From Roseobacter litoralis Och 149 (GTDB taxonomy: Bacteria; Pseudomonadota; Alphaproteobacteria; Rhodobacterales; Rhodobacteraceae): a stretch of DNA of 64,000 nucleotides. Under the pieces are notes generated by a model. That model searched no databases. It was not told where the DNA came from and saw nothing but the letters and a program-made list of their open reading frames with translations. Positions 41,637-64,000 of the stretch are shown here, piece by piece. Made by a program: the position numbers and the translations under genes. The stretch covers positions 3,720,001 through 3,784,000 of the forward strand of contig NC_015730.1 of NCBI RefSeq assembly GCF_000154785.2, given 5' to 3'. How positions within the stretch are numbered: position 1 is the first letter of the stretch; each line of letters starts with the position of its first letter.

Positions 41637-41828
41637 GAAAGGCACAGAAATTCGGGTATGCACTCTAAAAAACCAATGCACTTGAAGCTGCATCTATTCC
41701 TACGGAGGTTTGCACACCTGTCGCGCGTAGCAAATAAGACTGAGTTTTCTTAACCCAATAGCACCTTCATACAGCGTCTTGACGGACGCACATTGAACGG
41801 CACGGGCCTATTTATCACAATTACAAGA

Positions 41829-42482: not shown

Positions 42483-42846
42483 TTGCGTTCCTTTCGATCG
42501 TAGTTCAATAACACGTAATGATAGAAAAAACACCTATGTGTTTCACGCGACCAAACGCTGCCCGCGCATGATAAAATAAATGCAGGAACTTGCACGCCTG
42601 CAGCTCAGAACGTGGCGATGCGTCGAGATGATGATCGTTTTCGACAGCTTGACGCCAGAAAACTTTCTAAGCAGCTAATTCAAGTGGAGTTGACCCCTCT
42701 GCTCGGCACTTTCTTCAACCGAGATTCTACCCAGAATTGTTTTCTTGCCTTGAGACGCAAAAGTGACCTAGGGTTGAGGTATATTGCATTTACACACGTT
42801 TAAACAGTTGCATTCATAACAGTAATACAATGAGAAGAAGCCAGCG
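42483..42846. other. divergent intergenic region in the eCIS locus
   Basis: About 360 bases separating the DUF4157 gene (minus) from the channel-like gene (plus). No coding frame is convincing. It must hold both promoters. A TATATT at 42780-42785 is a candidate -10 region for the plus-strand genes. Confidence 0.4.
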
Positions 42847-44142: not shown

Positions 44143-44948
44143 CGGCGCAGGGGAAAAAGCCTCCATCATCCAAGATTCAGTCAGTCACCAAGGTCGACGC
44201 AACGACACAGGCATCCTACCAGCTCTACTTTTCATCTGGCCTTTACGACCTGCGGTATCCAAGCCCTAACCGGATTATGTGGCAGCGGATTGAGCAGTTT
44301 TTGCATGCAGGCTCTGCCGTTCTTGATTTCGGCTGCGGCAGTGGGCGCTATCTGATGCGACTACAAGGGCGCGTTGCGCGTGCCGCTGGTTTCGATGTGA
44401 GCCCGGCCGCGTTGGACACAATCCGCGAGCGTGCAGCGCAGGCCGGATGGCACGACTTGCACATTCTCGGCCCTGCAGACACTGACATTTCAGACCATAC
44501 GCAAGCGTTTGGGAAAATGGATCTGGTGCTCTGCCTGTTTGGCGTTCTCGGTCATATTACGGATGAAAAAGCACGCGCGGATGCCTTGCTGCGCATGCGC
44601 CACGCCCTCAAACCTGAGACTGGCAGGCTGTTGATATCAGTACCGAACAGAGCCCGCCGATTTCGCGCTGAACAAGCCATGAACAAGGAAGGCTGTGGGT
44701 TGGTGCGCTATACGCGACAAACAGGTGATGGCCAGAACGTTGTATTGAATTACCAGCTGTTCGATCCCGAAAAACTGGTGCAGGAACTTGCGGCGGCAGG
44801 CTTTAACCTCCGCCGGATCGGGTGCGAGAGTGTTCTCCCTGAGAGCTGGCTATTACACAATAGCCTTGCGAGAAGGTTCGATGCAATACTGACGCCGCTG
44901 TGCCCACCCCGGTGGGGATATGGGATTTACGCCGAGGCATCTTGCTGA
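44139..44948 (+). CDS. SAM-dependent methyltransferase
   Basis: 269 residues. A TTG start (44139) overlapping the stop of the channel gene gives the most natural frame. The class I motif I is VLDFGCGSGRYLMRL near 64-78, followed by AGFDVSPAALDTIRERA and MDLVLCLFGVLGHI (motif IV region). N-terminal SYQLYFSSGLYDLRYP and a C-terminal half with RARRFRAEQAM suggest a small-molecule or ubiquinone-type methyltransferase; the substrate is unknown. Translational coupling to the channel-like gene implies a shared role. Confidence 0.78.
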   Translation: MTAQGKKPPSSKIQSVTKVDATTQASYQLYFSSGLYDLRYPSPNRIMWQRIEQFLHAGSAVLDFGCGSGRYLMRLQGRVARAAGFDVSPAALDTIRERAAQAGWHDLHILGPADTDISDHTQAFGKMDLVLCLFGVLGHITDEKARADALLRMRHALKPETGRLLISVPNRARRFRAEQAMNKEGCGLVRYTRQTGDGQNVVLNYQLFDPEKLVQELAAAGFNLRRIGCESVLPESWLLHNSLARRFDAILTPLCPPRWGYGIYAEASC

Positions 44949-45520: not shown

Positions 45521-46093
45521 GTGATTGATCTGACGCTCAAGCTCATTTGTGACCGGTTGAACGCGCACCTGTCAGCGCTCTTTTCGGTTCCCGAGGATCT
45601 TGTGACGATCGGACCGCTGAATGATGCAGAAGGCAAACCCACAGCGGAGGCGCGCAACCGACTGACCATCTTTGTGACCAACCTTGCACAGGACAGCATG
45701 CCCAGAAACACCACCACGCGTGGTGTTGCTCAAATCGGGCAGTCGCCCCCCGTCCATCTTGATATCTACTTTATGCTCGCCTCCGGACATGATGCCGAGA
45801 TCTATGAGGAAGGGCTGAAGCTCGTGTCTGCGGCGCTGATGTTTTTTCAGTCCAATTCAGTCATGACACCTCAAAACACACCTGAAATGCCCGCAGGCAT
45901 TTCGCAGTTATCCATTGATATTGCAAACCTCAAGGTTGAAGAGATTGGCCAGTTATGGGGCAACCTCGGCGGGCGGTATGTACCTTCGGTCATGTTTAAA
46001 GTCCGCTCCGTCATCATAGACGCAGGTCTTGTCAAATCCATCACACCGCTGATCCGTGCACCCGCAAGTTCCGCCAAAGCGGAGGCAGGCTGA
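45521..46093 (+). CDS. DUF4255 protein (eCIS tube/sheath terminator family)
   Basis: 190 residues from a GTG start. It matches the DUF4255/Pvc16 N-terminal family, found in almost all eCIS loci and considered to cap or terminate the tube and sheath: an N-terminal helix MIDLTLKLICDRLNAHL, then LTIFVTNLAQDSMPRN and VHLDIYFMLASG, and ISQLSIDIANLKVEEIGQLW followed by GGRYVPSVMFKVR. It is the first gene of the structural operon, and its stop overlaps the next start (TGATG). Confidence 0.88.
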   Translation: MIDLTLKLICDRLNAHLSALFSVPEDLVTIGPLNDAEGKPTAEARNRLTIFVTNLAQDSMPRNTTTRGVAQIGQSPPVHLDIYFMLASGHDAEIYEEGLKLVSAALMFFQSNSVMTPQNTPEMPAGISQLSIDIANLKVEEIGQLWGNLGGRYVPSVMFKVRSVIIDAGLVKSITPLIRAPASSAKAEAG

Positions 46094-46845: not shown

Positions 46846-49233
46846 ATGGTCATGAAAACCCCCGGCGTCTACATTGTCGAAAAAAGCGCCTTTCCCAACT
46901 CCGTCGTACAGGTCGCCACGGCGGTTCCGGCGTTTATCGGCTATACCGAAAAAGCAGTGAACGGGAACGTATCCCTGCACGAAATTCCGATGAAGATCAC
47001 CTCAATCTCGGAGTTTCACAACTACTTCGGTGGCGCGTCTGAGCCCATTTTTGACATCAAGCCATTTGAAGAGCGAGCATCCCCGCAGCCTTATGGCGAC
47101 GACGCCGATATGGCGACAGCCGCCGAGCTGCCGCAGGCAGTGTTCACCGTTGACGGCCCGGCTGGTCCCGTAAAATACGAACTTATTCAGACCAACACCG
47201 CATTCACGCTTTATAGTGCCATGCGCGCCTTTTTCCTGAATGGGGGCGGCACATGTTACGTCACCTCGATCGGGTCCTACAAAGATCAGATTGATTCAGG
47301 CGCGATGCTCAAAGCCATTACCCGGCTGGAAAAAGAGCCTGAACCGACGATGCTGGTCATTCCTGAGACCACCCGTCTGAACCGCCAGAATTCGCTCAAG
47401 GTGCAACAACAGATGTTGGCGCATTGTGGATATACGATGAAGAACCGCTTTGCCATTCTGGACATCCACGGTGGGTATCTCGATGAACGCAGCCCGCGCG
47501 GCGACCCTATCAAATGTTTCCGCAACGATGCTGGCACCAGCTATCTTGATTATGGTGCCGCTTACTATCCATGGCTCGACAGCGCTGTCTATCAGTCGCG
47601 CGACTTCAGCTTTGAAAACATAAACCTGAAAAAAAGCCGCAACACGTTCATTTCGCTGCTGAAGACCAGTGTCAAAATGGACAAGGCAATCGTACCCGAG
47701 ATCCTGAAAGTGGGCACGGCCGTGGTATCCGGTGACTTTACGGTCTCCGTAACGGCGGGCGGTATATCTGTCATCAAAGGGTCAGACATCCACGCAGCGG
47801 ACGATCTGGCAGACGCCGCAGAGCTGAAATACAAGGTTGTCGGCGCTCCCAAGGATGCAACTGACAAAGAGGCTGCTACCGATTTGGTCGCGGATATGAA
47901 GGGCAAGATCGTCGTCGCCGCAAAGAACGCAACCGATGATGCGCTCAAAGAAGCCGACCCGGCGTATGAATTCACTCAAAAAGACGTCGACGATCAGAAA
48001 GTGCGCTACGTGCACACCGACGCGTCCGGCGGCGACGGCTTTTTCGAGCTGGTGATCACCGATAATGAAGGCGTTCAGACATCTGCCCGTAAGATCGCTG
48101 TCATGATCGGCAGTGACGTACTTGCTTTGCCAGATGTAAAAAAGAAAAAGCCCGTGACGATTCCTATCGCGGAAGACGGTGTAACGATCGACAACGTCGT
48201 CTTGCTTGGTGCCGATGAAATCGACGCGGTGGCACGTCAAAATGAGGATGACGCGGTCAAAAGCGCGACTGAAGCGATCCTGGCCCTTCCGGATAATGCA
48301 ACGGATGAGGCGAAAGAGAAGGCGAACAAGGAACTTGCGGACGCGAAGGCCGCTGTCGTTGTCGCGTTCAAAGACAAAACGCTGACCCGTAAGGACATCG
48401 GCGTCTGGGAAGTCAAAGGCACAGAGGCCATCGTCTTCACACCGGACCCGGCACTCGACCGGGCGGAGACATCAGTGCGCTATAAACTGATGGCAGGTGG
48501 CGAGTTGTCCAAGCCTAAGGAGATCAAAATCCTCATCGACGGTATTTCCGGAGACGATGCGACCGATGATCAAGCCGCTAAGACAATCGACAAGACGATG
48601 CGCGTCGTTGCGCCGCTATACACCGATGTCATGAACGCCATCACCAAATATATGAACACCATGCCACCGGCTGCGGCGATGGCCGGTATCTACACGGCAG
48701 TGGATAACACGCGTGGCGTCTGGAAAGCGCCTGCGAATGTGTCCGTTGCCGGGGTGACGGGACCGATGGTCAACATCGACCATGCACAGCAAGAAAACCT
48801 CAACGTTTCGACAACAGGCAAATCGATCAATGCGATCCGGCCGTTTGTGGGCGAAGGAACATTGGTCTGGGGCGCGCGAACGCTTGACGGCAACTCGCTG
48901 GACTGGCGCTATATCAACGTGCGCCGCACCATGATCATGATCGAGGAATCAATCCGGCTGGCCGCAAAAGCCTATGTGTTTGAACCCAATACGGCGCAGA
49001 CATGGGTGACAATCCGGTCGATGATCGAAAACTTCCTGACGTCAGTCTGGAAAGCGGGCGGCCTTGCAGGCGCGGTGCCAACGGATGCGTTCAGTGTCCA
49101 TGTCGGTCTGGGTCAGACGATGACGCCGGTGGATATTCTGGAAGGCAAATTGCTGATCACCGTGCTGGTGGCCGTGACGCGCCCTGCGGAATTCATCGAG
49201 ATCACGTTCCAGCAACAAATGCAGAAATCATAA
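46846..49233 (+). CDS. contractile sheath protein with large inserted domain
   Basis: 795 residues. The N-terminal sheath part (1-284) contains KTPGVYIVEKSAFPNSVVQV, VPAFIGYTEKA and NRFAILDIHGG. The C-terminal sheath core (about 586-795) has IYTAVDNTRGVWKAPANVSV and ending EFIEITFQQQMQ. About 300 residues are inserted between them. The insert includes FTQKDVDDQKVRYVHTD (376 onward, cadherin/CSPG-repeat-like) and LTRKDIGVWEVKGTEAIVFT (513 onward, CshA-fibril-repeat-like). Without the insert it would be an ordinary eCIS sheath. Such an insert would project from the sheath surface. An AAAGGAGG ribosome site lies upstream. Confidence 0.9.
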   Translation: MVMKTPGVYIVEKSAFPNSVVQVATAVPAFIGYTEKAVNGNVSLHEIPMKITSISEFHNYFGGASEPIFDIKPFEERASPQPYGDDADMATAAELPQAVFTVDGPAGPVKYELIQTNTAFTLYSAMRAFFLNGGGTCYVTSIGSYKDQIDSGAMLKAITRLEKEPEPTMLVIPETTRLNRQNSLKVQQQMLAHCGYTMKNRFAILDIHGGYLDERSPRGDPIKCFRNDAGTSYLDYGAAYYPWLDSAVYQSRDFSFENINLKKSRNTFISLLKTSVKMDKAIVPEILKVGTAVVSGDFTVSVTAGGISVIKGSDIHAADDLADAAELKYKVVGAPKDATDKEAATDLVADMKGKIVVAAKNATDDALKEADPAYEFTQKDVDDQKVRYVHTDASGGDGFFELVITDNEGVQTSARKIAVMIGSDVLALPDVKKKKPVTIPIAEDGVTIDNVVLLGADEIDAVARQNEDDAVKSATEAILALPDNATDEAKEKANKELADAKAAVVVAFKDKTLTRKDIGVWEVKGTEAIVFTPDPALDRAETSVRYKLMAGGELSKPKEIKILIDGISGDDATDDQAAKTIDKTMRVVAPLYTDVMNAITKYMNTMPPAAAMAGIYTAVDNTRGVWKAPANVSVAGVTGPMVNIDHAQQENLNVSTTGKSINAIRPFVGEGTLVWGARTLDGNSLDWRYINVRRTMIMIEESIRLAAKAYVFEPNTAQTWVTIRSMIENFLTSVWKAGGLAGAVPTDAFSVHVGLGQTMTPVDILEGKLLITVLVAVTRPAEFIEITFQQQMQKS

Positions 49234-49258: not shown

Positions 49259-49717
49259 ATGGCAGATGATGGCTCCGCCCAAACAACAGCAATCTGGCCG
49301 CTTCCCAAGTTCCACTTTCAGGTAAAATGGGACGACACGGAACTGGCTTTTCAGGAAGTCTCGGGTCTCGACATCGAGTCCGAAGCACTTGAATACCGCG
49401 CAGGCAACAACCCGGTTTTCTCCAAGATCAAAATGCCGGGCATGATCAAATACAGCAACATCACCATGAAAAAGGGCGTATTCGTCAAAGACAATGCGTT
49501 GTTTGACTGGTTTACAGAAATCAAGATGAATGTGATCAAACGCAAGGCGATCACGATTTCTTTGCTGGATGAAGCGCAAGCGCCGACGATGGTGTGGAAG
49601 GTTCAAAACGCCTTTCCGATCAAGGTCACGGGCACCGATTTAAAAGCTGAGGGCAATGAGGTCGCGGTGGAAAGCATCGAGATCGCGCACGAAGGCTTTG
49701 TTATCGAGAACGCCTGA
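49259..49717 (+). CDS. inner tube protein (Afp1/Pvc1 type)
   Basis: 152 residues, phage-T4-gp19-like tube subunit: FHFQVKWDDTELAFQEVSGL, then MPGMIKYSNITMKKGVF, and a C-terminal beta strand IEIAHEGFVIEN. Tube proteins of this family stack as hexameric rings inside the sheath. It follows the sheath gene by 25 bases. It is the first of two tube-family genes; it is probably the main tube subunit. Confidence 0.92.
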   Translation: MADDGSAQTTAIWPLPKFHFQVKWDDTELAFQEVSGLDIESEALEYRAGNNPVFSKIKMPGMIKYSNITMKKGVFVKDNALFDWFTEIKMNVIKRKAITISLLDEAQAPTMVWKVQNAFPIKVTGTDLKAEGNEVAVESIEIAHEGFVIENA

Positions 49718-49722
49718 CGCCT

Positions 49723-50178
49723 ATGGATCCGCTTAACCCGCCTGTTGCGTTTCATTTTTCGGTCATGTTCGTGGGGGGAACGCCCGCTGTGCCGGACATG
49801 GCGTTTCAGGAGGTGTCCGGCCTTGAAAGCGGCCTCGAGACCGAAGCGTTGGTTGAAGGGGGCGAGAACCGCTTCGTTCACCAACTGCCCAAGCCTCTCA
49901 AACAGGGCAATCTCAAGCTCAAGCGTGGGATGACGACAACGGACAGCGGTCTGGTGAAGTGGTGCAAGGCCACGATCGAAAACGACTTGGCCAAACCAAT
50001 CGAACCCAAGGACATTACGGTGTCGTTGTTGAATGAAGAGCGTGACCCGGTGGCCGTCTGGTCCATCGGGAACGCCTATCCGGTCAAGTGGACGGTAGGA
50101 GGATTTGACGCGATGAAAAATGAACTGGCCGTCGAAACAATCGAACTGGCCTACACTACCCTGAAGAGGAAAACCTGA
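49723..50178 (+). CDS. second tube protein (Afp5/Pvc5 type)
   Basis: 151 residues of the same T4-gp19-like fold: VAFHFSVMFVGGTPAVPDMA, FQEVSGLESGLETEALVEGG and ETIELAYTTLKR. eCIS loci typically encode a main tube protein and one that adapts the tube to the spike complex; from its position after the first tube gene and before the LysM gene this is the adaptor. Its stop overlaps the next start by one base. Confidence 0.9.
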   Translation: MDPLNPPVAFHFSVMFVGGTPAVPDMAFQEVSGLESGLETEALVEGGENRFVHQLPKPLKQGNLKLKRGMTTTDSGLVKWCKATIENDLAKPIEPKDITVSLLNEERDPVAVWSIGNAYPVKWTVGGFDAMKNELAVETIELAYTTLKRKT

Positions 50179-50354: not shown

Positions 50355-51041
50355 GTGGCCAAGCTCAAAATCATCAAATGTGCGATCAAATCGAGCAAGA
50401 TCGAACCCAAAAGCGGGGCGGCGAACACATTTCAGGCGACGATCAACCCGGAGAGCTATAAGCACAACTATTCGCTTCAATATACCGGCACCAAAAACAA
50501 CAAGGATGCGCCCGTTGGAAAGTCGGGCACAGTGCCCAAGTACTCGATGGCTGATCCTGAAAAGATCGGTTTTTCGATCACCGTAGATGGGACAGGCGTC
50601 GTGCCGGACGCCAAGGGAAAGACGGTTGCCGCGCAGATCGATCAACTGCGCAAGATCGTCTATGACTATGACGGTGATGAACACGAGCCAACGGCCGTCA
50701 AGATCATCTGGGGAAAGGGCCTGAAGGCGTTTTTCGGCAGGCTGACCGACATGGCCGTGGATTATACGTTGTTTCATCCCGATGGGACCGCCTTGCGCGC
50801 CAAGATTACGATGAATTTCATCGAGGCCCGAACCGCGGCGCAAGAGGCGCTGGAGGCCAAACGGCGCTCGCCCGATCTGACCCATGTCGTGCGTGTGCAA
50901 AGCGGCGATACTCTCCCGATGCTCTGCTACCGTATTTACAAGGACGCGGGCAAATACCTCACTATTGCCGCCTTCAACGACTTAGACAGCTTTAGGGATC
51001 TGGAGCCAAACACACTGCTTCGTTTCCCGCCGATTAGGTGA
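50355..51041 (+). CDS. LysM-containing baseplate hub protein (Afp7/Pvc7 type)
   Basis: 228 residues from a GTG start (MAKLKIIKCAIK). The N-terminal about 165 residues are tube-initiator-like (FQATINPESYKHNYSLQYTG). The C-terminus is a LysM-type segment (HVVRVQSGDTLPMLCYRIYK, LEPNTLLRFPPI) as in gp53-like proteins of contractile tails. It joins the tube to the spike and baseplate. It is ten bases before the spike gene. Confidence 0.87.
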   Translation: MAKLKIIKCAIKSSKIEPKSGAANTFQATINPESYKHNYSLQYTGTKNNKDAPVGKSGTVPKYSMADPEKIGFSITVDGTGVVPDAKGKTVAAQIDQLRKIVYDYDGDEHEPTAVKIIWGKGLKAFFGRLTDMAVDYTLFHPDGTALRAKITMNFIEARTAAQEALEAKRRSPDLTHVVRVQSGDTLPMLCYRIYKDAGKYLTIAAFNDLDSFRDLEPNTLLRFPPIR

Positions 51042-51050: not shown

Positions 51051-52817
51051 ATGCCAGCAAGCCCATTAGACAATTCAGATGGCCCGCTTACCATTTCAGT
51101 GAAAGCTGATGGTGACGAAGTACCTGATTATCTGTCGATCCAGGCGATTTACGTCACATATGAACTCAACCGTATTCCCGAGGCGACGGTTGTCATTCAA
51201 TCCGACTCTGTGGAAATTGACGAGTTCGAAGAATTGGACAGTGATCTGTTTGGTCTGGGTGTTAAAATTGAAATCAGCGCAGGGTTTGGCGATTCCGGAT
51301 ATCAGAAACTGTTCACAGGCATTGTGATCTCGCAGCGCGCCCGGCTCGACGCGCAACAGGGCGCAAGATTGGAAGTGATGTGTCGTGACAAGGCTCTCAA
51401 GCTGACCGAAACACGCAGTTCGGCACCTTATGAAGAGATGAACGATAGCGATGTGATGAAAGGAATAATCACGGAAGCTGGGCTAACGAGTGACGTTGAC
51501 AAAGTCGAAACCAGCGTAGGTACGCAGTTGCGCATCGGCGCGACCGACTGGGACTTTCTCCGCTTGCTGGCCGATCGAAACGGCTTTGTGCTGGCCGTCA
51601 AGGACGGAGAAATCAAGGTCACCAAGCCGGACAGTTCGGTTGAATCAGCGTTGCTGGTAACTTTCGGCAATGACATTATCGATTTTGACATCTCTTTGGA
51701 TAGCAGTCGCTCAATCAAGGATGCCGCACAGGACGCATGGGATGAAGCCAGCCAGGAGCGCGTGTCAGGCCCCAGCAGTTACAAGCCAAAGCTCAGTTTT
51801 GGAGAAACCAAGTACAAAAGTTTCGCAGAAAACCTCGGGGATCGTGCGCACAAGATAAGCACATCACGCGAAGTGGATGCAGCAGACCTCAAGGAGATGG
51901 CCAATGCCCGCGTCATGCGGTCTGAACTGGCGGCTGTTTCCGGTACGGTGTCTTTCCCGGGCTGCGGTAAAATCTGGCCGTTGGATGTTCTTGAAATTTC
52001 CAACACGGGGAAGCGCTTTGGCGGCGACGGTCTGGTTACGGCGGTCTCTCACACAATCGAGTCCGGCCAGTGGACCACGCAAACGCGGCTGGGCTTGCCG
52101 CCCGACTGGACCAGCGACAGCGTTGGTCTGGCTGCCCCTGCGGCTGAGGCCATAACAACCCCGATCCATGGACTCCAGATTGGAAAGGTCGTTCAACTGA
52201 CAGACGATCCCTTGGGCAAGCAGCGCATTCAGATCTCTCTCCCGATGATAGGTGCGGATGGTGCGGATGTCTGGGCGCGCTATGCGCAACCCTATGCGTC
52301 GGACGGGGCGGGCATCCAGTTTCTCCCGGAGGTGGATGACGAGGTGATTGTCGCATTTCTGAACGCGGACCCCAATGCGCCGGTTATCGTCGGATCACTG
52401 CACAACGACAAAGCAAAACGCCCTGAAATAGAAACCGAAGAAAACAAAATCAAAACGATAGTGACGCGCGAAAAACTGAAGGTGATCTTTGATGATGAAA
52501 AGAAGATCATTACCGTTGAAACACCGGGTGGTCACAAACTGGTCATGGATGACGAGCAGAGCAGTTTCAGCATGGAAGACATGAACGGCAATGCCATCGT
52601 CATGGATAGCTCGGGCATCGCGCTGACCTCAGACAACGACATCACGCTGACCGCAACGGGCAAAATAGAGGCTGAGGCCACAATGGACGCGACAATATCC
52701 GGGCAAAACGTGACCTGCGAGGGACAGATCGGATTTACCGGCTCTGGCGGTGCGACGGCTGAGGTATCGGCGGGCGGTCAGACAAAAATCGAAGGCGCCA
52801 TGGTGATGATAAACTAA
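51051..52817 (+). CDS. VgrG-like spike protein (Afp8/Pvc8 type)
   Basis: 588 residues. The N-terminal gp27-like hub (about 1-330) includes GFGDSGYQKLFTGIVISQRA. A gp5-type OB fold follows at about 370-450 (IGKVVQLTDDPLGKQRIQIS, IQFLPEVDDEVIVAFLNADP) and then a beta-helical needle of short repeats to the C-terminus (NAIVMDSSGIALTSDNDITL). It forms the trimeric puncturing spike. No extra C-terminal effector domain is seen. Confidence 0.92.
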   Translation: MPASPLDNSDGPLTISVKADGDEVPDYLSIQAIYVTYELNRIPEATVVIQSDSVEIDEFEELDSDLFGLGVKIEISAGFGDSGYQKLFTGIVISQRARLDAQQGARLEVMCRDKALKLTETRSSAPYEEMNDSDVMKGIITEAGLTSDVDKVETSVGTQLRIGATDWDFLRLLADRNGFVLAVKDGEIKVTKPDSSVESALLVTFGNDIIDFDISLDSSRSIKDAAQDAWDEASQERVSGPSSYKPKLSFGETKYKSFAENLGDRAHKISTSREVDAADLKEMANARVMRSELAAVSGTVSFPGCGKIWPLDVLEISNTGKRFGGDGLVTAVSHTIESGQWTTQTRLGLPPDWTSDSVGLAAPAAEAITTPIHGLQIGKVVQLTDDPLGKQRIQISLPMIGADGADVWARYAQPYASDGAGIQFLPEVDDEVIVAFLNADPNAPVIVGSLHNDKAKRPEIETEENKIKTIVTREKLKVIFDDEKKIITVETPGGHKLVMDDEQSSFSMEDMNGNAIVMDSSGIALTSDNDITLTATGKIEAEATMDATISGQNVTCEGQIGFTGSGGATAEVSAGGQTKIEGAMVMIN

Positions 52818-53576: not shown

Positions 53577-54524
53577 ATGATCAGGTCCCCCCAGATATCC
53601 TCAATCCGAACAGGCGCCGCGATCGGCGTGGTTGTCCTTAACCTTGCGGGCTGCGGTTTCATCGCCGAACGGCTGAAGGACGAGCCTGTGAAAAGAGTAC
53701 AGGCCCTGGCTCCGGATCAGGCGTGCGACGCGGCTGAACAGACACAGAACCGTCTGTCCGGCGGGTACTTGCGCCAAGCAGAGGCAGGTGGACTTGCCTT
53801 TGATCCGGTGCTGATTGCCGGGCGCAGTAACCGCAACGGTCTGCGTGAAGAAATCGACCTGAACGATAAATCCCAGCCCCGCGAAACAGAAGACATCCCG
53901 GGTACGACCTTTATTGGCACCAAGAAAGCGACGGCCAAACCGCGCGTAGGATTTGGCCAGCCCGGAAAGCTGCCGAACGTGTATGACGTGACCTATGCGA
54001 TCAATAAAATCAACTTTACCGGTCCGATGGTGGTTGGGCCCAGTGCTGTTGTAAGCGAGATTCCAACGTCTGGCGCGACGCTTTACACAGGCAAGGTTGA
54101 GCTCAGCATTATTGCGCCAGACGAAGCCGGCGATCTGATCACGACCAAAGCCGCCGGGCGATTTACCATGAAGGCCGGCTTTGCCACCCAACGTGGCAGT
54201 TTCTCCGCCACTGATTTCGATAAAAGTCTGTCCTTTGACCGCCTGATATGGAGCAATCTCTTTTTGTGCGGAACGCGCTTTGTCAGCAGTGGCAAAGGGG
54301 TTGTGGGCGTGCAAACAGGCGATGGGCCTGTTCTGGCACCGTTCAAAGCGGACAGAAACCCGGCCCCGTTTGGCGCGCTTTTTGAAAGTTCCCAATTTGC
54401 GCCCACAGAGCGACCTGCACCGCCAGAGTCCTTTGGCGGGGTTCTGGTCATCCAAAGTGACAACGGCACGATCATAGCCGTGTTCCTGTCCGACCAAGCG
54501 AAAGAGCAGGAAAGTGATGTCTGA
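53577..54524 (+). CDS. predicted lipoprotein inside the eCIS baseplate operon
   Basis: 315 residues. N-terminus IRSPQISSIRTGAAIGVVVL, then a lipobox LAGC with C26 and Gly at +2, so outer-membrane sorting would be expected. The rest is probably beta-rich (GRFTMKAGFATQRGSFSATD, SFGGVLVIQSDNGTIIAVFL) and faintly recalls the end of transferrin-binding-protein-like barrels; I would not name a family. It lies between gp25 (3 bases) and the large baseplate gene (overlap), so it is co-translated with particle parts. A lipoprotein is not a standard eCIS component. It might tether the particle or protect the producer. Confidence 0.78.
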   Translation: MIRSPQISSIRTGAAIGVVVLNLAGCGFIAERLKDEPVKRVQALAPDQACDAAEQTQNRLSGGYLRQAEAGGLAFDPVLIAGRSNRNGLREEIDLNDKSQPRETEDIPGTTFIGTKKATAKPRVGFGQPGKLPNVYDVTYAINKINFTGPMVVGPSAVVSEIPTSGATLYTGKVELSIIAPDEAGDLITTKAAGRFTMKAGFATQRGSFSATDFDKSLSFDRLIWSNLFLCGTRFVSSGKGVVGVQTGDGPVLAPFKADRNPAPFGALFESSQFAPTERPAPPESFGGVLVIQSDNGTIIAVFLSDQAKEQESDV

Positions 54525-57500
54525 TACCGCGCGCCCAAAAAACCAACGGGCGAAGGCCTGGGGCGGGCTTCGCGTCACACCCGGCTCGCAAAGCGACGCA
54601 AGGTTGCCGCGCCCGCTGTCTCCGCGCCGCTTTATGGTCAGAGACGAAAGCCTTGCAGAGGCGTTCTGCAAGGCAGGTAAAAGGCTGGGGGCAGAGGATG
54701 TGCCGCTGGCGCGGGAGAACAGATATGCACGTCCCTGGGCGCGGCTTTTTCAGAACGAACCCGCCTATCTTTATGCCGAAATCCTGAGCTTCAAGGCCGG
54801 TGATGCGGGTTTTGCCTTTGCCGAAGCGCTGGAATATGAACCGACCAAAGCCCTCAGCCTGACACGGGAGCTTTCGGACCAGCTGACCGATTGGTTACGC
54901 CGTATCAAACTTGAATCTCCGGTGCCATTTTCGAAGCAGATCGACCAGCTGAACAAGGAACGTAACCTGTCCGGCCTGCTGGCGGACATGTATGGCAAAG
55001 GGCCGGCGGAGCTGACGCGGATTGCCAAAAAGCACCCGTCGGTTCGGGCGGCCAGCGATCAGGCAGGCCCCCTCGCCGAGGCCCGCGCCTTACGTGACAG
55101 GCTAAGAAGCGTACACACGTTGCTGCGCAATGCCGTCACATCGCTGCAAGCCTCAGCACAAGGCGCGTTTGACGCCCGTATCGCCTCCGGCGAGATTGAC
55201 CCCGGTCTGGGACTGATCATCGCTGAACTGCGCGCGTCTCAACATGTGGATGCCGCGTTTAACAAACTGCCGGATCGCCATACGGATTTATATTATCAGG
55301 ACATCATCGGACAGACCCCGGCCTCGGCCAGCCCTGAAATGGTTTTGCTTGATCTAGGCCGCGTCCCCCGTCCGGGCTTTGTGCCACAAGCAACGGCCCT
55401 TGAAGCGCTTTTGCCAGATGGCAGCGTGCAACAGTTCGAAACGGATACCGGCGTTCCCACAAGCCCCGCCGTTGTGAGCGACATCAAAGTGCTCAGCTAC
55501 GAAACAGACAACAACATTTCTTACAATCGCGCATTGGGCGGCATAACCGGATTGCGCGCCGCTACCTTGAGCATAGACGCAGAACCCAATTCGCAGACCC
55601 TGTTCGGCTCGGGGGTGGAACAGGACCCCGATTTCGGGCTGGATATTTCATCTCCCATGTTGTCCCTTGCCGAAGGGACGCGTCGCATTGAAGTGTCCCT
55701 GCACATGAGCCGCGATTCAAACCTGCCTGCGGGGTCGTATAAGTTTACGAAGGAGGAAATCGAGGCACTCAAGGAAAAACGGAAAGACGAGGCCAACCCT
55801 TTAAACGCCAAAGTTATAAAGACCCCGGTTTTGCGCCGCCGCCCTCAGGAAATCGACCCTGAGTACCGGGACCCGGAGGTGCGCCTCGCCCTGTCAGCAG
55901 ATCCGACCCTGATCTCAACGTTTTATGGCGATCGAAAAGACTTCAAAAGCGCCGACGCGATTGAGGAGTTGACCCGCGAAGTTACTGAATACGCCACCTT
56001 GCACTATATGACGACATCCATGGCGCTGATCTATTCGGTTTTGATGGACAAGGTCGAAAAACCAGCGCACCTCCGGGTTTTGCTGGGCCGCATCGTTACA
56101 CTGTCGCTGATAGAAAAACACCCGTTTCCGGAGGGGGATTACTGGACCAAGATATTCGGGCTGGTCCAGAAGTATCGCAGCGAACTTATCGGCGTCGAAC
56201 CAGAGGGCATTCAAGCGGATGGCGCTGCGCGCAAGAGCTATGATCAGCAACAGAACTCGATGATTTTCGCCGCTTTTTCACAGCGTCTGGACGGCAAAAT
56301 CAACTATCCCCTCAGGGATGTGTTTCAAAGCCTGCTCGGCGATGCTTTTGCCGTGACGATTACAACGGATGACGGGCCGCGCCGCCCGGACATCATGCAA
56401 ATACTGCCGCTGCGGGAAAAGCGCGCGCAGGGCGGCATCATGCTCAGCATGCGCTATGATGCCAACGCACCGGCCCTGACCGGCCCGAAAAATGCGCCCC
56501 GCCTTGCCCTGCGCTATGCAACTGATGCGCGTCTTTGTCCGGTTTCCTTCTTTGAGGCCTACGCAATCGAAACCATCAGCATCCGTACGCAGGTCACTGG
56601 CTTGCGACGTCTTGCGGCGTTTTCCGATGACGGTCCCCTCGTGACCGATCAAACCTTCCAGCCCTTTGGACCGCGCCCCTCTGAGGGGGCCACGTTTCAG
56701 GTCGGGTGCGCTGAAATGGCACGCAAACCCGTCAAAAGCGTAAACATATGCCTTGAATGGTCCGGGATGCCGAACCCGGTCGGCGGGTTTGAAACCCATT
56801 ATGCCACCTACGGACGCGGTATCGACATTCCGGACCCCAAGCTGACCATCGACTACCTCAGCGGGGCCGGCTGGAAGACCGTAAGTTCCGAACCCGTACC
56901 CCTGTTCCAAAGCGAAGGCGTATCGGCGTCTTTAAAGTCTGAATGGGAGTTTTCCGGCAAGATAACGGGGCGTTCGATCCCTGCAACGGGCACGGTGTCT
57001 GCGCAGGAATACCAGTCGCGCCAGACCATCCGCGCAGGCATGATCCGTATGACCTTGACGGGCACGGCTGGTGGTTTCCTGACAGACCGCTATCCGATGG
57101 CTCTGGTCGAAGCGATGCGACCGCGGCTTGTGAAACTGGGCGAACGCAAGATACCCCCCGCACCTTTCATACCGGAAGTTGCCAAATTTTCACTCTCCTA
57201 CACAGCAGAAGGCATGATCGAACTCAATGCCCCTGAAACCGCGCGGGCGGGTGAAGAGGTCCGTCAATCCGGCCCCTTTGGATCCGTAAGCGTGTTCCCC
57301 AAGCGTATGCACAAACGAATACAACTCTTTCCCAAACGGCTCGGCTACGGGCAGGTTTGCTTTCAACTCACCGGTGCAAATAAAACCGGGCCAACCGCAC
57401 TGACGATAAATCTGGCGTCTTCGGGACACCTGCGGCGTGTCCCTGCGCGCAACCCTTTGTCATGGTTTTATCTTTCGGCACACGGCTGGCAGCAGATGCC

Positions 57501-58602
57501 TGAGACCGCAATTTCGTCTGACACGACCGTCGGCTTGATGCGATCCGGGATCGTTGTCATCGACCTGCCCGATGATGCGACAGAGCACTCTACTGAAATG
57601 CCGGCGGGCGGCGTCTGGTTCGCGGCAGTGGCGACACAACCCAATGTCGAGATTTTCCCCAGTCTTTCGGCCGCTAAAGTGAATGGCGTCTGGGCGCGCC
57701 GCATGGATGACACCTGGAAGAAAAGCGATGCCCCACGTGTGTGGCGTTTCACACCGGCGCAGCCGGGTCTGACCAGCATCCAGGAAATCCCGATACCAAC
57801 TACATCACGCCCACCGGAACCGCGCGAAATTTTCCTAGCGCGCGTGGGCGAGCGTTTGCGTCATCGCCGTCGCGGGGTCACGCCGTGGGATATGGAACGG
57901 CTGGTGCTCGAAGAGTTTCCTGACGTCTGGATGGCCAAATGCCTGCCGCATCTGAGAACGGAAAACGCCGCGCCTGCACCGGGTCACATGACGCTCGTGG
58001 TTGCCCGCAAACAATCCGAGGACGCCGTTTTGCGAAACCCGCAGCCTGCATTGTTTGACGTAACGACGCTCAATTCAATTCAGAAATGGCTTTCGCAATT
58101 CACATCCGAGGCTTGCACCGTCGACGTTGTAAACCCGACCTTTGAACGGCTTCAGGTGCGCGCCAAACTGACGGCAAATGTGAAGCGGGAAAACGGTGCG
58201 ATAGCCCAGCTGCTCAGACGTGATCTTCGAAAATTTCTGTCGGTCTGGACGGCTGATGCCTCGATGAAGCGGTTTGGATGGTCACTCAACATCCAGATGC
58301 TGCGCGCTCATATTGCTGAAAAGGACTATATCGAAAAGATAACTGATTTTTCTGTTCTTCATTTGGCTGGCGATGATGAAAAGCGATTCAGTCTGCTGGA
58401 TACCGCACAAACCAAGAATGACTGGCGCGGCATATACGGACCCGTATTGAAGCCTCATTTCCCATGGAGCCTTCCCATTTCTACAGTTGAGCATGGTTTA
58501 ACGATAATAGCCGATTTCAAAGATGAACAACCAACAGCAGCCGGCATTGGAAGCCTCACTTTAGGCGAGATGCTGATTGTCGGCCAAAGGACCATCCCGT
58601 GA
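54517..58602 (+). CDS. large baseplate protein (Afp11/12-like)
   Basis: 1361 residues from the ATG at 54517. There are long N-terminal helical parts, and a C-terminal region (about 1100-1350) with LARVGERLRHRRRGVTPWDM, ERLVLEEFPDVWMAKCLPHL and RLQVRAKLTANVKRENGAIA. That region is the baseplate-J/gp6-like segment of eCIS wedge proteins. It is longer than usual for one wedge protein. The region about 280-480 contains beta-rich text with no recognised match. It overlaps the lipoprotein gene at its start and the next gene at its end. One of two large wedge proteins, with the 59459 gene product. Confidence 0.8.
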   Translation: MSDTARPKNQRAKAWGGLRVTPGSQSDARLPRPLSPRRFMVRDESLAEAFCKAGKRLGAEDVPLARENRYARPWARLFQNEPAYLYAEILSFKAGDAGFAFAEALEYEPTKALSLTRELSDQLTDWLRRIKLESPVPFSKQIDQLNKERNLSGLLADMYGKGPAELTRIAKKHPSVRAASDQAGPLAEARALRDRLRSVHTLLRNAVTSLQASAQGAFDARIASGEIDPGLGLIIAELRASQHVDAAFNKLPDRHTDLYYQDIIGQTPASASPEMVLLDLGRVPRPGFVPQATALEALLPDGSVQQFETDTGVPTSPAVVSDIKVLSYETDNNISYNRALGGITGLRAATLSIDAEPNSQTLFGSGVEQDPDFGLDISSPMLSLAEGTRRIEVSLHMSRDSNLPAGSYKFTKEEIEALKEKRKDEANPLNAKVIKTPVLRRRPQEIDPEYRDPEVRLALSADPTLISTFYGDRKDFKSADAIEELTREVTEYATLHYMTTSMALIYSVLMDKVEKPAHLRVLLGRIVTLSLIEKHPFPEGDYWTKIFGLVQKYRSELIGVEPEGIQADGAARKSYDQQQNSMIFAAFSQRLDGKINYPLRDVFQSLLGDAFAVTITTDDGPRRPDIMQILPLREKRAQGGIMLSMRYDANAPALTGPKNAPRLALRYATDARLCPVSFFEAYAIETISIRTQVTGLRRLAAFSDDGPLVTDQTFQPFGPRPSEGATFQVGCAEMARKPVKSVNICLEWSGMPNPVGGFETHYATYGRGIDIPDPKLTIDYLSGAGWKTVSSEPVPLFQSEGVSASLKSEWEFSGKITGRSIPATGTVSAQEYQSRQTIRAGMIRMTLTGTAGGFLTDRYPMALVEAMRPRLVKLGERKIPPAPFIPEVAKFSLSYTAEGMIELNAPETARAGEEVRQSGPFGSVSVFPKRMHKRIQLFPKRLGYGQVCFQLTGANKTGPTALTINLASSGHLRRVPARNPLSWFYLSAHGWQQMPETAISSDTTVGLMRSGIVVIDLPDDATEHSTEMPAGGVWFAAVATQPNVEIFPSLSAAKVNGVWARRMDDTWKKSDAPRVWRFTPAQPGLTSIQEIPIPTTSRPPEPREIFLARVGERLRHRRRGVTPWDMERLVLEEFPDVWMAKCLPHLRTENAAPAPGHMTLVVARKQSEDAVLRNPQPALFDVTTLNSIQKWLSQFTSEACTVDVVNPTFERLQVRAKLTANVKRENGAIAQLLRRDLRKFLSVWTADASMKRFGWSLNIQMLRAHIAEKDYIEKITDFSVLHLAGDDEKRFSLLDTAQTKNDWRGIYGPVLKPHFPWSLPISTVEHGLTIIADFKDEQPTAAGIGSLTLGEMLIVGQRTIP

Positions 58603-59462
58603 CCAAACAAGACCGCCCCACCCTCAAATCCTTCTTTCGCAGTGGTTCTTTGCCCACGGCAAAGGAGTTCGGTGACCTGATCGACAGTACCGTAAACCAG
58701 GTCGATGACGGCTTTGCGAAAACCGACACGGATGGGCTGCGGCTGAATTCAGTCGGATCCTCGCTGAAGGTGCTCAGCTTGTATCAGGGACTGGGGACCC
58801 CCAAACCGTCTTGGATCATAGAGCATGGCGAAAAAGATGGTGTGCTCAATTTTCGCCCGGATGAAGGGCAGGATGGGCTGAAGATTGACGAGGATGCCAA
58901 GTCATCGGGCAAGACTGAAAACACCTTTCCGCCAAATATGACAATGACCCGCGACGGCATGGTCGGCATCAATCAAGAGGAACCGGAATGGCGTTTTGAT
59001 GTGGGTGGTGTAGCGCGGATGCAGGGGCGCATTGGTGTCGCAACCCCCAAGTACGAAACCGTACCCGCCGACCGGGGCTGGCACCCCATCACCGAAGCCA
59101 TGACCGGCTGCCAGATCCTCGAAGTGGTGGCAGGCACCGGCGGGGAGCCGGGAAAAGGGCGCTATTCCATCATGCGCGCAATTGCCATGAATGCGTACCA
59201 CCCACGCAATCGGTTCCTGAACTGGTTTTTTCGGCGGCGGTCCATCAAAACCCAAACTGCGATGTATGGCAGCTATGCAGATCGCATTTGTCTGCGCTGG
59301 GTCGCGGATAAAGAGAAGGAGCACCATTACATTCTTGAACTGAAGACCAACGCTGAATTCGAGGGCAAATTGGTGCGGTATTATATTACCAAGCTCTGGT
59401 TCGACAGCGCGATGGTTGGCGCCCATGGAAAAAAAGACGACAGGGATGAGAACCTGCTATGA
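58599..59462 (+). CDS. putative fibre/receptor-binding-like eCIS protein
   Basis: 287 residues from a GTG overlapping the previous stop. The N-terminal helix KSFFRSGSLPTAKEFGDLID and VDDGFAKTDTDGLRLNSVG resemble the attachment part of eCIS/phage fibre-like proteins. The middle reads MVGINQEEPEWRFDVGGVAR, a VGI-P-LDVGG pattern seen in tail-fibre stalks. The C-terminal 120 residues form an unrecognised probable beta domain (WHPITEAMTGCQILEVVAGT). By context, a Pvc13-like fibre, at low certainty. Confidence 0.55.
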   Translation: MTKQDRPTLKSFFRSGSLPTAKEFGDLIDSTVNQVDDGFAKTDTDGLRLNSVGSSLKVLSLYQGLGTPKPSWIIEHGEKDGVLNFRPDEGQDGLKIDEDAKSSGKTENTFPPNMTMTRDGMVGINQEEPEWRFDVGGVARMQGRIGVATPKYETVPADRGWHPITEAMTGCQILEVVAGTGGEPGKGRYSIMRAIAMNAYHPRNRFLNWFFRRRSIKTQTAMYGSYADRICLRWVADKEKEHHYILELKTNAEFEGKLVRYYITKLWFDSAMVGAHGKKDDRDENLL

Positions 59463-61711
59463 GCGCCAAACCGCCAGAGCCTTTAGAAGACTTTGCCGAT
59501 CTGCGCCGTGTTGCCGTGGACTATGCGCAAGAGGCCTCGGGCAAGATTTGGACAGACTATAACTTGCATGACCCCGGGGTTACGCTGCTTGAACAAACCT
59601 GCTTTGCGCTGAGTGAAATTGCATATCAGGTGGGGCTGCCGACCCGCGACCTGCTGACGAACCAGCGTGGTAATTTCTGCTTTCACAATCTGGGCCTGTT
59701 CCGTCCGCGAAAGGTTCTGAACACGACACCTGTAACCCGTGATGATCTGGCCGCGTGGCTGTGCGCTTGCAAAGAAGTGGAAAGCGTTACTGTTGCCGAA
59801 CCAGACCCCGAACGTCCGGGTCTGTTTGATATCACCCTTATTCCTTCTGACAATGTGAAGGATAAGAAAGCGGTCGCAAAACGCTTGCGAAAAGCTTTCG
59901 AAGCCGCGCGACCCTTGGGCACGGATCTGGGCAGGCTTACGATCGCCGAACCCGTCTATGTCAAGCTGATCGGATCTATTGAGATCAAGAATGAGGTATT
60001 GCCCGAGACCACGGCCGCATATCTCTACTACGGCATCGCACGTTTGCTCAAAGGCATCGGAACACCCAAAAAACCGGCAAAGCGTCAGGATGTCTTGGAT
60101 GAACCGCTACGCCTGCTCACCCCGCCGCAAAGCCGGACAGAACAAAAACTGGACAGCAAAGAAACACAAGTCGACCTGAGCGCGTATCTTGCAAAGCTGC
60201 GTGAGTTGCCGGGCGTGCAGACAATCGAACATTTGACCCTGCAATTGCCCAAGAAAACCAGGGAGTATGTTTCGAGGCCCAGTCATGAAGTCTACTTTCA
60301 CTCTTTCTTGCCAACGATGCCCGAAGAAGAACTACAGACAATCTCCACAGATGCGCTGCCGCCGCTTCCCGAAGAGATTGGCATCATACTGACGCTCGAC
60401 GGAACGCCCGTTGCGCTGAATGCAAAACGCATCGAAGAAGAAGTCGTGCGCATCAAAGCCGTCGAAATTGCGCAGGCTGATCATCATATTGACGCACCAG
60501 ATTGGGACGTCATGAAACCCGGGCGCAACCGGACTTTCTCACAATCACATGTGGATGCGTTTTTGCCGTTCGTCTTCCGCGCCCGAGGCTACAGGGAGAA
60601 TGACGCCACCACATTGATCGCGGAATATCGCAGCAGTATCGACACTTTGCTGTCCGACATGGTGGACGATCTGAATACACTGCCTGAGATTTTCAAGGCC
60701 AAGCCAAAGACGCAAAATGATGATGCGAAAAAGCACCGCTTGCAGGTTGCGTTGCTTGACTATCTCATCGCACTCCAAGGCAGCGAAATGCCGGCCACAC
60801 GGCACAGCGGCCTGCATTGCTATCATACCACCCGTGAAAGGCACCGGTTTGAGATCTCATGGCGGCTGAATTACCTGTTTTCCCTGCCAGCATTACATGC
60901 GGCCCGCGCGACCGGTCCGGATAGAGAGAAAAAGAAGGATGGCGGTTTTTTGAGCGAATTGGCAACGCTGTGCGATTTGGATATCTCGAAAGATGGCAAG
61001 CTGACCGGACGATTGACGGACTACGGCTTGCGTTTGACGCAAGGACCGACACTGGCAGGCGAAGCACCGGCGGAAGAAGTCAAACTCGTGTCCGCCACAA
61101 GCCCCTTTGATATGATCGTCCCTGAATCGGACAAATACGAACTGCTAGACAAGGACGCGCTAAAAACACTGTCACCGTTTCTCACTGAAGGCGCGCTGAC
61201 GGCAGAACTTTTTGCGCATTTGACGCAATCTGACAGCTTTGCAATCGCACCTTATCCGGGCCAGTACCAGATATTGCTGGACCCTGGCATTTTCGGCCCA
61301 CTGCGTCGGATCGGCTTGCGTCAACGCAAAGAGGATGCTCAGCAGGCCGTGGTCAACCTGCGCTCTACCTGGCGGGACCTGAACCGGCGCTCTGAAACTG
61401 CCGTGTTAATCGAACATATCACACTGCGCGCTTGCGGTGAGGATTGCGACCCCAATATGGCTGATCTGATCTTGCCGGGGTGGACGGCCCGCTGCGCGAT
61501 GCCGAGTTACCAAAGCTATATTGAAACGCAGGTCAACACCCTGGCACCGGCACATATTCATGTGCGGGTGCGCTGGCTGGACTTTGATACCTGTGCCAAA
61601 TTCGAAAAGCTGTACGCAAAATCAAAATCCGGAACAGCCGAAGACCTGCGCGCCTTGAAGGTGTTTCTAGATACGCCCACCAACACGGAAGCGGAGGGTC
61701 AGGATACTTGA
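59459..61711 (+). CDS. second large baseplate protein (wedge, gp6/TssF-like region)
   Basis: 750 residues. The N-terminus DFADLRRVAVDYAQEASGKI, WTDYNLHDPGVTLLEQTCFA is the characteristic opening of eCIS baseplate wedge proteins (the DPGVTLLE motif). The remaining sequence alternates wedge-like alpha/beta regions with Lys-rich linkers. It pairs with the 1361-residue protein in the wedge. Overlaps: four bases with the fibre-like gene upstream (ATGA) and one base with the tape-measure gene downstream (TGATG). Confidence 0.82.
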   Translation: MSAKPPEPLEDFADLRRVAVDYAQEASGKIWTDYNLHDPGVTLLEQTCFALSEIAYQVGLPTRDLLTNQRGNFCFHNLGLFRPRKVLNTTPVTRDDLAAWLCACKEVESVTVAEPDPERPGLFDITLIPSDNVKDKKAVAKRLRKAFEAARPLGTDLGRLTIAEPVYVKLIGSIEIKNEVLPETTAAYLYYGIARLLKGIGTPKKPAKRQDVLDEPLRLLTPPQSRTEQKLDSKETQVDLSAYLAKLRELPGVQTIEHLTLQLPKKTREYVSRPSHEVYFHSFLPTMPEEELQTISTDALPPLPEEIGIILTLDGTPVALNAKRIEEEVVRIKAVEIAQADHHIDAPDWDVMKPGRNRTFSQSHVDAFLPFVFRARGYRENDATTLIAEYRSSIDTLLSDMVDDLNTLPEIFKAKPKTQNDDAKKHRLQVALLDYLIALQGSEMPATRHSGLHCYHTTRERHRFEISWRLNYLFSLPALHAARATGPDREKKKDGGFLSELATLCDLDISKDGKLTGRLTDYGLRLTQGPTLAGEAPAEEVKLVSATSPFDMIVPESDKYELLDKDALKTLSPFLTEGALTAELFAHLTQSDSFAIAPYPGQYQILLDPGIFGPLRRIGLRQRKEDAQQAVVNLRSTWRDLNRRSETAVLIEHITLRACGEDCDPNMADLILPGWTARCAMPSYQSYIETQVNTLAPAHIHVRVRWLDFDTCAKFEKLYAKSKSGTAEDLRALKVFLDTPTNTEAEGQDT

Positions 61712-64000
61712 TGGCGACACCCGCTCGAACGGACCAGCTGAAGCCCGCATCAGCGCGGATCAACAGCTGTCTGGCAGAATTTCATGTGACGAGCCCCAAG
61801 GGGCCCCTTTCGTCGCCCGAAACCCTGCTGGCTGCCGTTCGACGCGAAATCCTGCCTGCATTATCCGATGTTCTGGATTCACCAGAGTGGCAGGGAATTA
61901 CAATTCGGGCGGAACAGATCGACATAGACTTGGGCCACTGGCCCGAGGATCCCGTCTGGTCAGATGTCCGCTACGTCCTTGCAACCAAGTTGCGATATGC
62001 GCTGGCGGACTATCTACCGGCAAATCCAACCAGCCCCGTCATTCACGAGGTCACCGCAGATACGCTCGAAAACCGGATATCACCCACCCATTTCTCAACA
62101 TCAGAAGAAGACACAAACCCGACGCTCAACCACCCGCGCGGCGCTGACCCGCGTGATACCGCGCCCTTAGTGCAGGACCGCTCGGACAAGGAAACAGGTC
62201 AACCGGTGTTGTCTCAGCAGCAGATTGCGCGCCGGATTGATGCATTTGTGAGTTGGACACAGGCCGCGCCAGACAACAAAACCCTGCAGATGGTGTTGGC
62301 GCGACTGGAACGCCACTCAGATGAGCGGCAGGCGTTGATCCATGTTTTGCGCGAACAATATGCATCCAACGTCACGGGCGCAGACACCTCGGCGCGACGT
62401 CTTACAGATGAACTGGGTCGCACGGTCGCTCAGGCGCTCACCCGGTTGGACGCCCGCGCTGCAAATACCGAACGCCAATTGCCTGACAGGGCAGAACCCG
62501 TCGCGGTGGATAAACCACCGGTGCCGCAGAAGACGGACCCGCATGTCACTCAATCGGGCCGGTTGCCTTCCGCAGATGGACAGAACACGTCGAAGTGGGA
62601 TGCGTCGTCGGTGCCGCAGACAACAGACCCGCGTATCTCTCTGTCAGACCGATTGCCTTTCGCAGATGAACAGAACACAGCGCAGACGACTTCAGAGGGG
62701 GATGCGTCGAATGATCTGGGCGCGGCGCCCAATGGGCCCGGCGCAGGCAGCGCGCGCATACCTCAGGCCCAAGAACGCTTGATACAAAGCCTGTTGCAGG
62801 AAGGTGTGCCGGACACCATCGTTCATGAGCGATCCTTTGCACTTCTTCAGCGATTGATGCCATTCCTCGATCCCAAGTTCACGACAGATACGCGAGTGCC
62901 TTTCGACGCCGCGCAAACGTCCGCTGAAGGATCGGGACGATCTGCTGAGGCTGTGCATAGCCACACATTGCTATCAACGGCACCGACGGCGGCCAGTCAG
63001 ATGGCTATCACGGACGCAGAAACACCTGTCGAACCCGTAGAAAACGCGGCCGAGGGTGCATCGATCCAAAACAAAGGCAGGCAAACGCCTAATGAGGGTG
63101 TGGAAGGGGCCGCCACACCTGCGCAAACCGCAGCAAAGGCTGCGACAACAGCGAACGCAGCCCAACGGATACCTGACACGCCCGCGACCACCGACGCAGA
63201 TGGCACAGACACCCGAAAAGATGGTCGTCAAACGCCAAATGTTACGCAGGCACATCATGATGAGGGACATCAAAACAGCCGACCGGATGCAGAAACCAAA
63301 GCTGACGCGGCTGTTGCGCTTGGCTCAACACCTGAACCGGATGCCGCCCGTTCACTTGGCGACCGAGGTGCATCGCCCGAAGTCAGTTCAGAGCCTCTCA
63401 CCCATTACAAAGCGGCAGATTCAGCGGAGGTTGGAGATGACAACCACCAACATGCGCTATCGCAAATCGCCAGTGCGTTGGGGGTTGATCAAGGGGTTTC
63501 GCCCAAGGACTTTTGCATCCGGAAGCTGATACAAAGCCCGAATGCCATTTTCTCCGCAGCGTCTGAACTGGGCGCTCTCAGAGCGCTGATCACGCTTTTA
63601 CGTGAGGAAGGACCGGACACGCGCCCGCTTCTTGCCAAAACAACGCTTGCCTCCGACAAAATCAGAGCCATGCACACAGAAGACCCTGACTCGCTTGCAA
63701 AAGCAGTTGGACGGCTCACGACCATAGATGCGTTTGACCTTGCACGCCGGCTTTTGCCGCCCAGCGCGACACTGCTGGTCGAACATCTTACAGAACTGAA
63801 AAAGAATGCGAAATCGCCCCAGCTTGTGATGCAGCATGTGATTATTGCGCTTCTGAACGGCGATTTGCTCGACTTCGAAGATCTTGCGCAAAGGACTGAA
63901 ACCACCCTTACGGCGCCGAACCCTGAACGAAGCGCGCGCGAGGAGCGCGCCGACAACGGAAATGCTGCGCAGGGATACGAGAGGCCATCAGATCCGGGAC
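61711..64000 (+). CDS. contractile injection system tape-measure protein, partial
   Basis: At least 763 residues, open to the window end. The N-terminus (ILPALSDVLDSPEWQGITIR, AEQIDIDLGHWPEDP) matches the CIS tape-measure family (Afp14/Pvc14 type), which sets tube length. A middle section (about 255-560) is low-complexity and Ala/Thr/Pro/Asp-rich with a 30-residue tandem repeat at 271-330 and two copies of a GRQTPN phrase. Helical units follow (SALGVDQGVSPKDFCIRKLI, LLRNEG-like LLREEGPDTRPL). The downstream AAA+ ATPase and remaining eCIS genes are expected beyond the edge. Confidence 0.82.
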   Translation, partial: MATPARTDQLKPASARINSCLAEFHVTSPKGPLSSPETLLAAVRREILPALSDVLDSPEWQGITIRAEQIDIDLGHWPEDPVWSDVRYVLATKLRYALADYLPANPTSPVIHEVTADTLENRISPTHFSTSEEDTNPTLNHPRGADPRDTAPLVQDRSDKETGQPVLSQQQIARRIDAFVSWTQAAPDNKTLQMVLARLERHSDERQALIHVLREQYASNVTGADTSARRLTDELGRTVAQALTRLDARAANTERQLPDRAEPVAVDKPPVPQKTDPHVTQSGRLPSADGQNTSKWDASSVPQTTDPRISLSDRLPFADEQNTAQTTSEGDASNDLGAAPNGPGAGSARIPQAQERLIQSLLQEGVPDTIVHERSFALLQRLMPFLDPKFTTDTRVPFDAAQTSAEGSGRSAEAVHSHTLLSTAPTAASQMAITDAETPVEPVENAAEGASIQNKGRQTPNEGVEGAATPAQTAAKAATTANAAQRIPDTPATTDADGTDTRKDGRQTPNVTQAHHDEGHQNSRPDAETKADAAVALGSTPEPDAARSLGDRGASPEVSSEPLTHYKAADSAEVGDDNHQHALSQIASALGVDQGVSPKDFCIRKLIQSPNAIFSAASELGALRALITLLREEGPDTRPLLAKTTLASDKIRAMHTEDPDSLAKAVGRLTTIDAFDLARRLLPPSATLLVEHLTELKKNAKSPQLVMQHVIIALLNGDLLDFEDLAQRTETTLTAPNPERSAREERADNGNAAQGYERPSDPG
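62521..62700 (+). repeat. two 90-bp in-frame tandem repeats in the tape-measure gene
   Basis: Two adjacent units starting GTGCCGCAGA at 62521 and 62611 encode VPQKTDPHVTQSGRLPSADG... and VPQTTDPRISLSDRLPFADE.... Divergence between units is moderate, so the duplication is not very recent. Repeats in a tape measure could change tube length. Confidence 0.75.

Follow-up and report, generated by a model that had tools for sequence, protein, structure and literature searches.

Why would the sheath protein of an injection machine carry two modules of stalk type between its halves? The question is raised by a gene in a 64,000-nucleotide stretch of the Roseobacter litoralis Och 149 genome (NC_015730.1, forward-strand positions 3,720,001 to 3,784,000; hereafter the window, whose own numbering is used). 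To judge from its sequence, the gene at 46846-49233 encodes the sheath protein of an extracellular contractile injection system (eCIS). The reading that we favour, at a probability of roughly 0.6, is that its insert would form a surface coat of stalk-type modules at the site occupied by domain IV in the AlgoCIS sheath. That reading combines computed parts (the two domains and their limits, an ordered fold predicted with confidence, the occurrence of both, one or neither of them in relatives, and a low ratio of nonsynonymous to synonymous substitution, dN/dS, between close pairs) with two that we infer, namely that the insert points outwards and that it forms a coat. The protein is laid out as follows:

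46846..49233, plus strand: eCIS sheath protein, 795 aa (open reading frame, Pfam, phmmer against the PDB)
46846..47619, plus strand: N-terminal half of the sheath core, residues 1-258 (alignments to 9r9h_T and 7adz_2A)
47626..47712, plus strand: helical lead-in, residues 261-289 (structure prediction)
47713..48111, plus strand: inserted domain A, Cadherin_3/CSPG type, residues ~290-422, Pfam match 300-409 (Pfam, profile, fold comparison)
47866..47952, plus strand: helical excursion within domain A, helices 341-351 and 364-369 (alignment, predicted helices)
48112..48546, plus strand: inserted domain B, CshA-repeat-like beta-sandwich, residues ~423-567 (alignment, profiles, fold comparison)
48226..48369, plus strand: Lys/Ala/Asp-rich helical arm within domain B, helices 461-467, 469-479 and 487-508 (alignment, predicted helices)
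48571..49230, plus strand: C-terminal half of the sheath core, residues 576-795 (Pfam, phmmer)

Three Pfam families, Phage_sheath_1C, Phage_sheath_1 and Cadherin_3, match the 795-residue protein above their curated cut-offs, and eCIS sheaths are its best matches in the PDB, with both the N- and the C-terminal half of the core conserved. The closest solved chain found by phmmer is the 519-residue sheath 9r9h_T (E 2.4e-168; the related entry 9rce names SalCis12, and no paper naming 9r9h_T turned up in the literature searched). Residues 2-260 and 548-795 align to this chain, which bears out the two recognisable sheath halves described in a first-pass annotation of the DNA, but only 27 residues separate the two pieces there, against about 290 in the window protein. 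The annotation had placed the extra region at 47695-48600, which is indeed residues 284-585 of the open reading frame 46846-49233, and the motifs that it quoted, FTQKDVDD at residue 376 and GVWEVKG at about residue 518, lie where it had numbered them. At E ≤1e-3, the gene has no match in its own genome other than itself.

The insert had been described as cadherin/CSPG-like segments followed by CshA-type repeats, and these domain kinds are supported by Pfam and PDB profiles, together with a predicted fold for the CSPG half. Cadherin_3 matches residues 300-409 (E 1.4e-7; 31.9 bits, the cut-off being 25.5) and is found in all 59 rows scanned (the window insert and 58 long homologues; E ≤1e-3), while the predicted fold of domain A is that of a Cadherin_3/CSPG repeat, resembling CSPG4, a protein receptor by its entry title. 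A profile of 15 inserts, searched against the PDB at E ≤10, matches only CshA (E 8.7e-4) and CSPG4 (E 0.03). The CshA half holds for the family more than for the window protein itself: CshA_repeat is matched at the same aligned columns in 47 of the 59 rows (E ≤1e-3), the window row not being among them, and a profile of 11 arm-free second domains finds CshA at E 1.7e-5. Since Pfam does not recognise CshA in this protein, we call its domain B CshA-like rather than filing it by itself as a CshA repeat. Compared with most homologues, this domain is split by an additional helical arm; at that place 35-47 residues are present in P0001 and in 23 of the 58 aligned homologues, at most 6 in 34, and 22 in one. 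The Lys/Ala/Asp-rich stretches, formerly taken for linkers between domains, are confidently predicted helices inside both of them, and the insert as a whole is predicted to be one ordered unit (predicted template modelling score, pTM, 0.84). Five aspartates (297, 314, 319, 320 and 406) are invariant in 15 aligned inserts, residue 320 being conserved in less than 90% of the wider set of 59 rows; that they form a calcium site would be a guess from the cadherin-like family.

Elsewhere, modules of these kinds serve as stalks, in bacterial adhesins and in proteins of the animal cell surface. CSPG repeats (Cadherin_3, PF16184; CSPG4, 7ml7) form an array in a membrane protein, whereas here a single copy lies in a sheath. 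Domain B shares a motif with CshA repeats (PF19076; PDB 6szc), which the profile of related second domains also matches, but in CshA a stalk is built from 17 repeats and the ligand is bound by NR2 (PMC10952558), while here a single copy sits in a sheath loop, with an arm in this lineage. Beta-sandwich domains are likewise added to the sheath core in type 2 and type 3 phage tails, and Ig-like extra domains, for which adhesion or cementing has been suggested, occur in many phage sheaths (PMC9230969).

A structural guide to the position of the insert is the AlgoCIS sheath Alg2 (PDB 7adz, 7ae0, 7aek), likewise the single sheath protein of an eCIS with a long insertion between the same flanks. The alignment to Alg2 ends at query residue 248 (Alg2 242) and resumes at 561 (Alg2 454), and the insert lies between the sheath halves at the same site as Alg2-type domains III and IV. 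These two domains point outwards, and domain IV adopts several hinge angles (PMC8894135, whose methods assign loops 288-320 and 430-446 to a 'domain VI' that we read as IV). Because Alg2 has an outward-extending domain IV between the same flanks, the outward display of the insert that had been proposed is likely. In Roseiflexus, antibodies to a region aligned with domain 3 of the S. coelicolor sheath labelled 99.2% of particles as a positive control (PMC12998442), and such sheath regions can therefore be exposed. Given that the Anabaena sheath has 23 hexameric layers (PMC8894136) and that those of AlgoCIS are numbered to 23 (PMC8894135), a sheath of similar length would carry about 140 subunit copies in its coat.

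The annotation had allowed that the region might prove to be an ordinary variant of domain III/IV, a candidate that we set aside. The insert profile matched neither Alg2 nor any other PDB sheath, and no sheath chain, Alg2 included, appears in the 50 rows listed for either fold comparison, an absence that is no proof and is compatible with a shared fold. Although it occupies that site, the insert is by sequence not recognisably an ordinary domain III/IV variant.

Comparison of sheath lengths in relatives, as had been advised, reveals that the segment between the halves varies with the presence of zero, one or two domains. Among the best 120 of 3504 matching proteins, a set that leans to the architecture of the query, the lengths between residues 250 and 606 cluster at 80-120, 173-227 and 280-379 residues. 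Together with 87 loci these homologues make 207 sheaths (198 different; 23 of 230 rows dropped), which were labelled with two profiles built in this analysis: 110 have neither domain, 73 both, 16 only the CshA-type and eight only the Cadherin-type domain. The segment 259-581 measures 40-118 residues without domains (160 and 167 in two more), 139-246 with one and 247-345 with both. Pfam agreed with the labels in six of six single-domain proteins (E ≤1e-3, the match in P0102 lying under the curated cut-off) and in both two-domain proteins checked, and found neither domain in the unlabelled P0116. On a FastTree tree of the 207 cores, domain content must change at least 15 times, and starred branches force four changes each for 'none', 'both' and 'Cadherin only' and one for 'CshA only'. 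When the helical arm is counted as an extra state, a quick IQ-TREE tree of 129 of these rows requires 17. Of the close sisters P0079 and P0100, which have common sequence around the site, the first has the Cadherin domain and the second lacks it; this looks like a loss. The site also accepts other inserts, since in L060, a Comamonadaceae metagenome-assembled genome, it is filled by a 167-residue Lys/Ala/Asp-rich, probably helical segment with neither domain.

Across 390 genomes of the order, 24 matched (E ≤1e-50): 16 with both domains, one with the Cadherin-type domain only and seven with neither. Both domains occur in all eight matching genomes of the window's genus, at least two further genomes of which have no match; over the DNA compared, the 781-residue sheath gene of one member (G404) does not differ from that of Roseobacter sp. 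H9 (L034). Of at least 582 sheath loci in named genomes the best 80 were kept, and nine of these have the two domains, all of them Rhodobacterales to judge by their titles. We found no link between the domains and gene content, as homologues of the cap, tube, VgrG and gp25 genes accompany all nine two-domain loci and also most of the 71 domain-free ones. As to a donor, the sole Cadherin_3 match found in the genome itself is that of the sheath (CshA repeats were not searched there), and no plasmid matched the insert. No location in the phage records accounts for 80% of the query, and the 15 entries listed, out of 1307, match only about residues 537-790; a phage origin was discarded after a scan of viral contigs returned eight pattern matches, none of them a relative.

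Selection on the two domains was gauged in two ways. Mean identity over 60 two-domain sheaths is 64% for the N-terminal core, 42% for domain A, 37% for domain B and 83% for the C-terminal core. From 21 distinct genes (210 distinct pairs), dS is unsaturated throughout the four parts in 84 pairs, of which 18, mostly from one genus, are close (C-core dN <0.03). In the close pairs median dN/dS is 0.07 in the N-terminal core, 0.08 in domain A (range 0.02-0.14), 0.07 in domain B (0.02-0.24) and 0.04 in the C-terminal core; over all 84 pairs the medians are 0.20, 0.53, 0.49 and 0.12, and the ratio exceeds 1 in two of the 84 for each inserted domain. At those larger distances dS is not to be trusted, but selection between genera may have been relaxed or diversifying.

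It is appealing to propose that the sheath bears a two-domain knob where AlgoCIS has its outward-extending domain IV, consisting of a CSPG/Cadherin_3-type beta-sandwich followed by a CshA-repeat-like one with a gained helical arm. A coat of such modules would govern how the surface of the released particle behaves (spacing, charge, resistance and packing between particles), and weak multivalent attachment to cells or matrix may be a further effect. We favour the coat because the modules are of stalk type, because Pfam recognises no known adhesive domain in the sheath protein (an undescribed one being conceivable), and because both ends of the insert return to the sheath. The coat would not be needed for the injection machinery as such, as the insert is absent from related clusters that have tube, spike and baseplate genes. 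The earlier interpretation, adhesion-like domains serving surface binding, bundling or anchoring, is supported for the kinds of domain and was partly over-read for the mechanism.

The main rival is multivalent weak adhesion, in which the domains would bind glycans, matrix or cell surfaces and many copies would add up to strong attachment, independently of the tail fibres. The likeness of domain A to CSPG4, the adhesive role proposed for Ig-like domains in phages (PMC9230969) and the greater divergence of both domains than of the core between species all speak for it, but CshA repeats are described as stalk modules (PMC10952558), no adhesive domain is known to Pfam, and the close pairs bear no sign of diversifying selection, so that we regard it as possible but tentative. 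Somewhat more doubtful is mechanical reinforcement, whereby the domains would contact neighbouring subunits and stabilise the extended or the contracted sheath. It agrees with the proposed cementing role of phage domains (PMC9230969), with the tip of domain IV lying near domain II of a neighbour in the distal layer of AlgoCIS (PMC8894135) and with the single ordered unit predicted for the insert. However, unlike a conserved interface, the domains are far more variable between species than the core, AlgoCIS domain IV takes several hinge angles, and clusters with tube, spike and baseplate genes exist without the domains.

A stronger version of adhesion strikes us as unlikely. In it the eCIS sheath of marine Rhodobacterales would itself be a targeting surface, its dense and possibly calcium-stiffened CSPG/CshA-type coat attaching or bundling particles without the help of tail fibres, and the number of domains in the coat would be switched from lineage to lineage. 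It is also improbable that a permissive loop has simply gathered functionless domains. The site evidently tolerates gain and loss, given at least 15 changes of content, it holds a long helical insert in L060, and dN/dS rises at larger distances; however, dN/dS is low in both domains in close pairs, and every matching genome of the window's genus keeps both. Least probable, in our view, are contacts between inserts that would order particles into arrays or keep them anchored in the cell that makes them. Cadherin folds often self-associate. Arrays are formed by metamorphosis-associated contractile structures and by subtype iv type VI secretion systems (T6SSiv), relatives of AlgoCIS, but they are ascribed to baseplate and fibre parts and not to the sheath (PMC8894135).

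The sheath gene stands in an eCIS cluster, with tube, spike, gp25, baseplate and tape measure genes around it and an AAA ATPase gene downstream of the last, beyond the window:

45521..46093, plus strand: Pvc16-N protein, likely the cap (Pfam, E 3e-28)
49259-49717, plus strand: first tube protein, Phage_T4_gp19 (Pfam)
49723-50178, plus strand: second tube protein, Phage_T4_gp19 (Pfam)
50355-51041, plus strand: CIS_tube protein (Pfam)
51051-52817, plus strand: VgrG-like spike (Pfam)
53136-53573, plus strand: gp25 wedge (Pfam)
54514..58602, plus strand: Baseplate J-like protein, Afp11/Alg11 type
59459..61711, plus strand: Afp12/Alg12-type baseplate protein
61708..64000, plus strand: tape measure protein (CIS_TMP), continuing past the window end

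Pfam assigned nothing to the 245-, 315- and 287-residue neighbours or to the 1108-residue protein after the ATPase, and phmmer found no PDB match for p287, p315, p245 and p1108. In Rhodovulum kholense (L035) and Cereibacter ovatus (L036), the cap gene is preceded by homologues of p12, p287, p11 and p315, an order that differs from the window. Upstream of the cluster, 39036-44948 holds a PAS-GGDEF-EAL protein, a solute-binding protein and a methyltransferase. Other loci depart from the usual plan: eCIS-type sheath genes stand without any other eCIS gene detectable by tblastn in flanks of up to about 10 kb on each side in L040, L052, L058 (Roseovarius gaetbuli) and L119, and less surely in L094 and L105, while L120 (G375:C9, 8844-12390) has two adjoining sheath reading frames in one eCIS locus.

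To explain how injection machines recognise their targets, one usually looks to tail fibres and baseplates. Cadherin folds in tail fibres are mentioned in a 2026 catalogue of eCIS receptor-binding domains, the word 'sheath' being absent from its main text (PMC12923769), and the open-licence literature searched, subscription papers and preprints lying outside it, held no paper on CSPG or CshA modules in an eCIS sheath. A sheath covered by stalk-type domains would give the particle a second surface, one that could serve contact, packing or protection, and the natural series of zero, one and two domains in related clusters makes the role of such sheath decoration directly testable.
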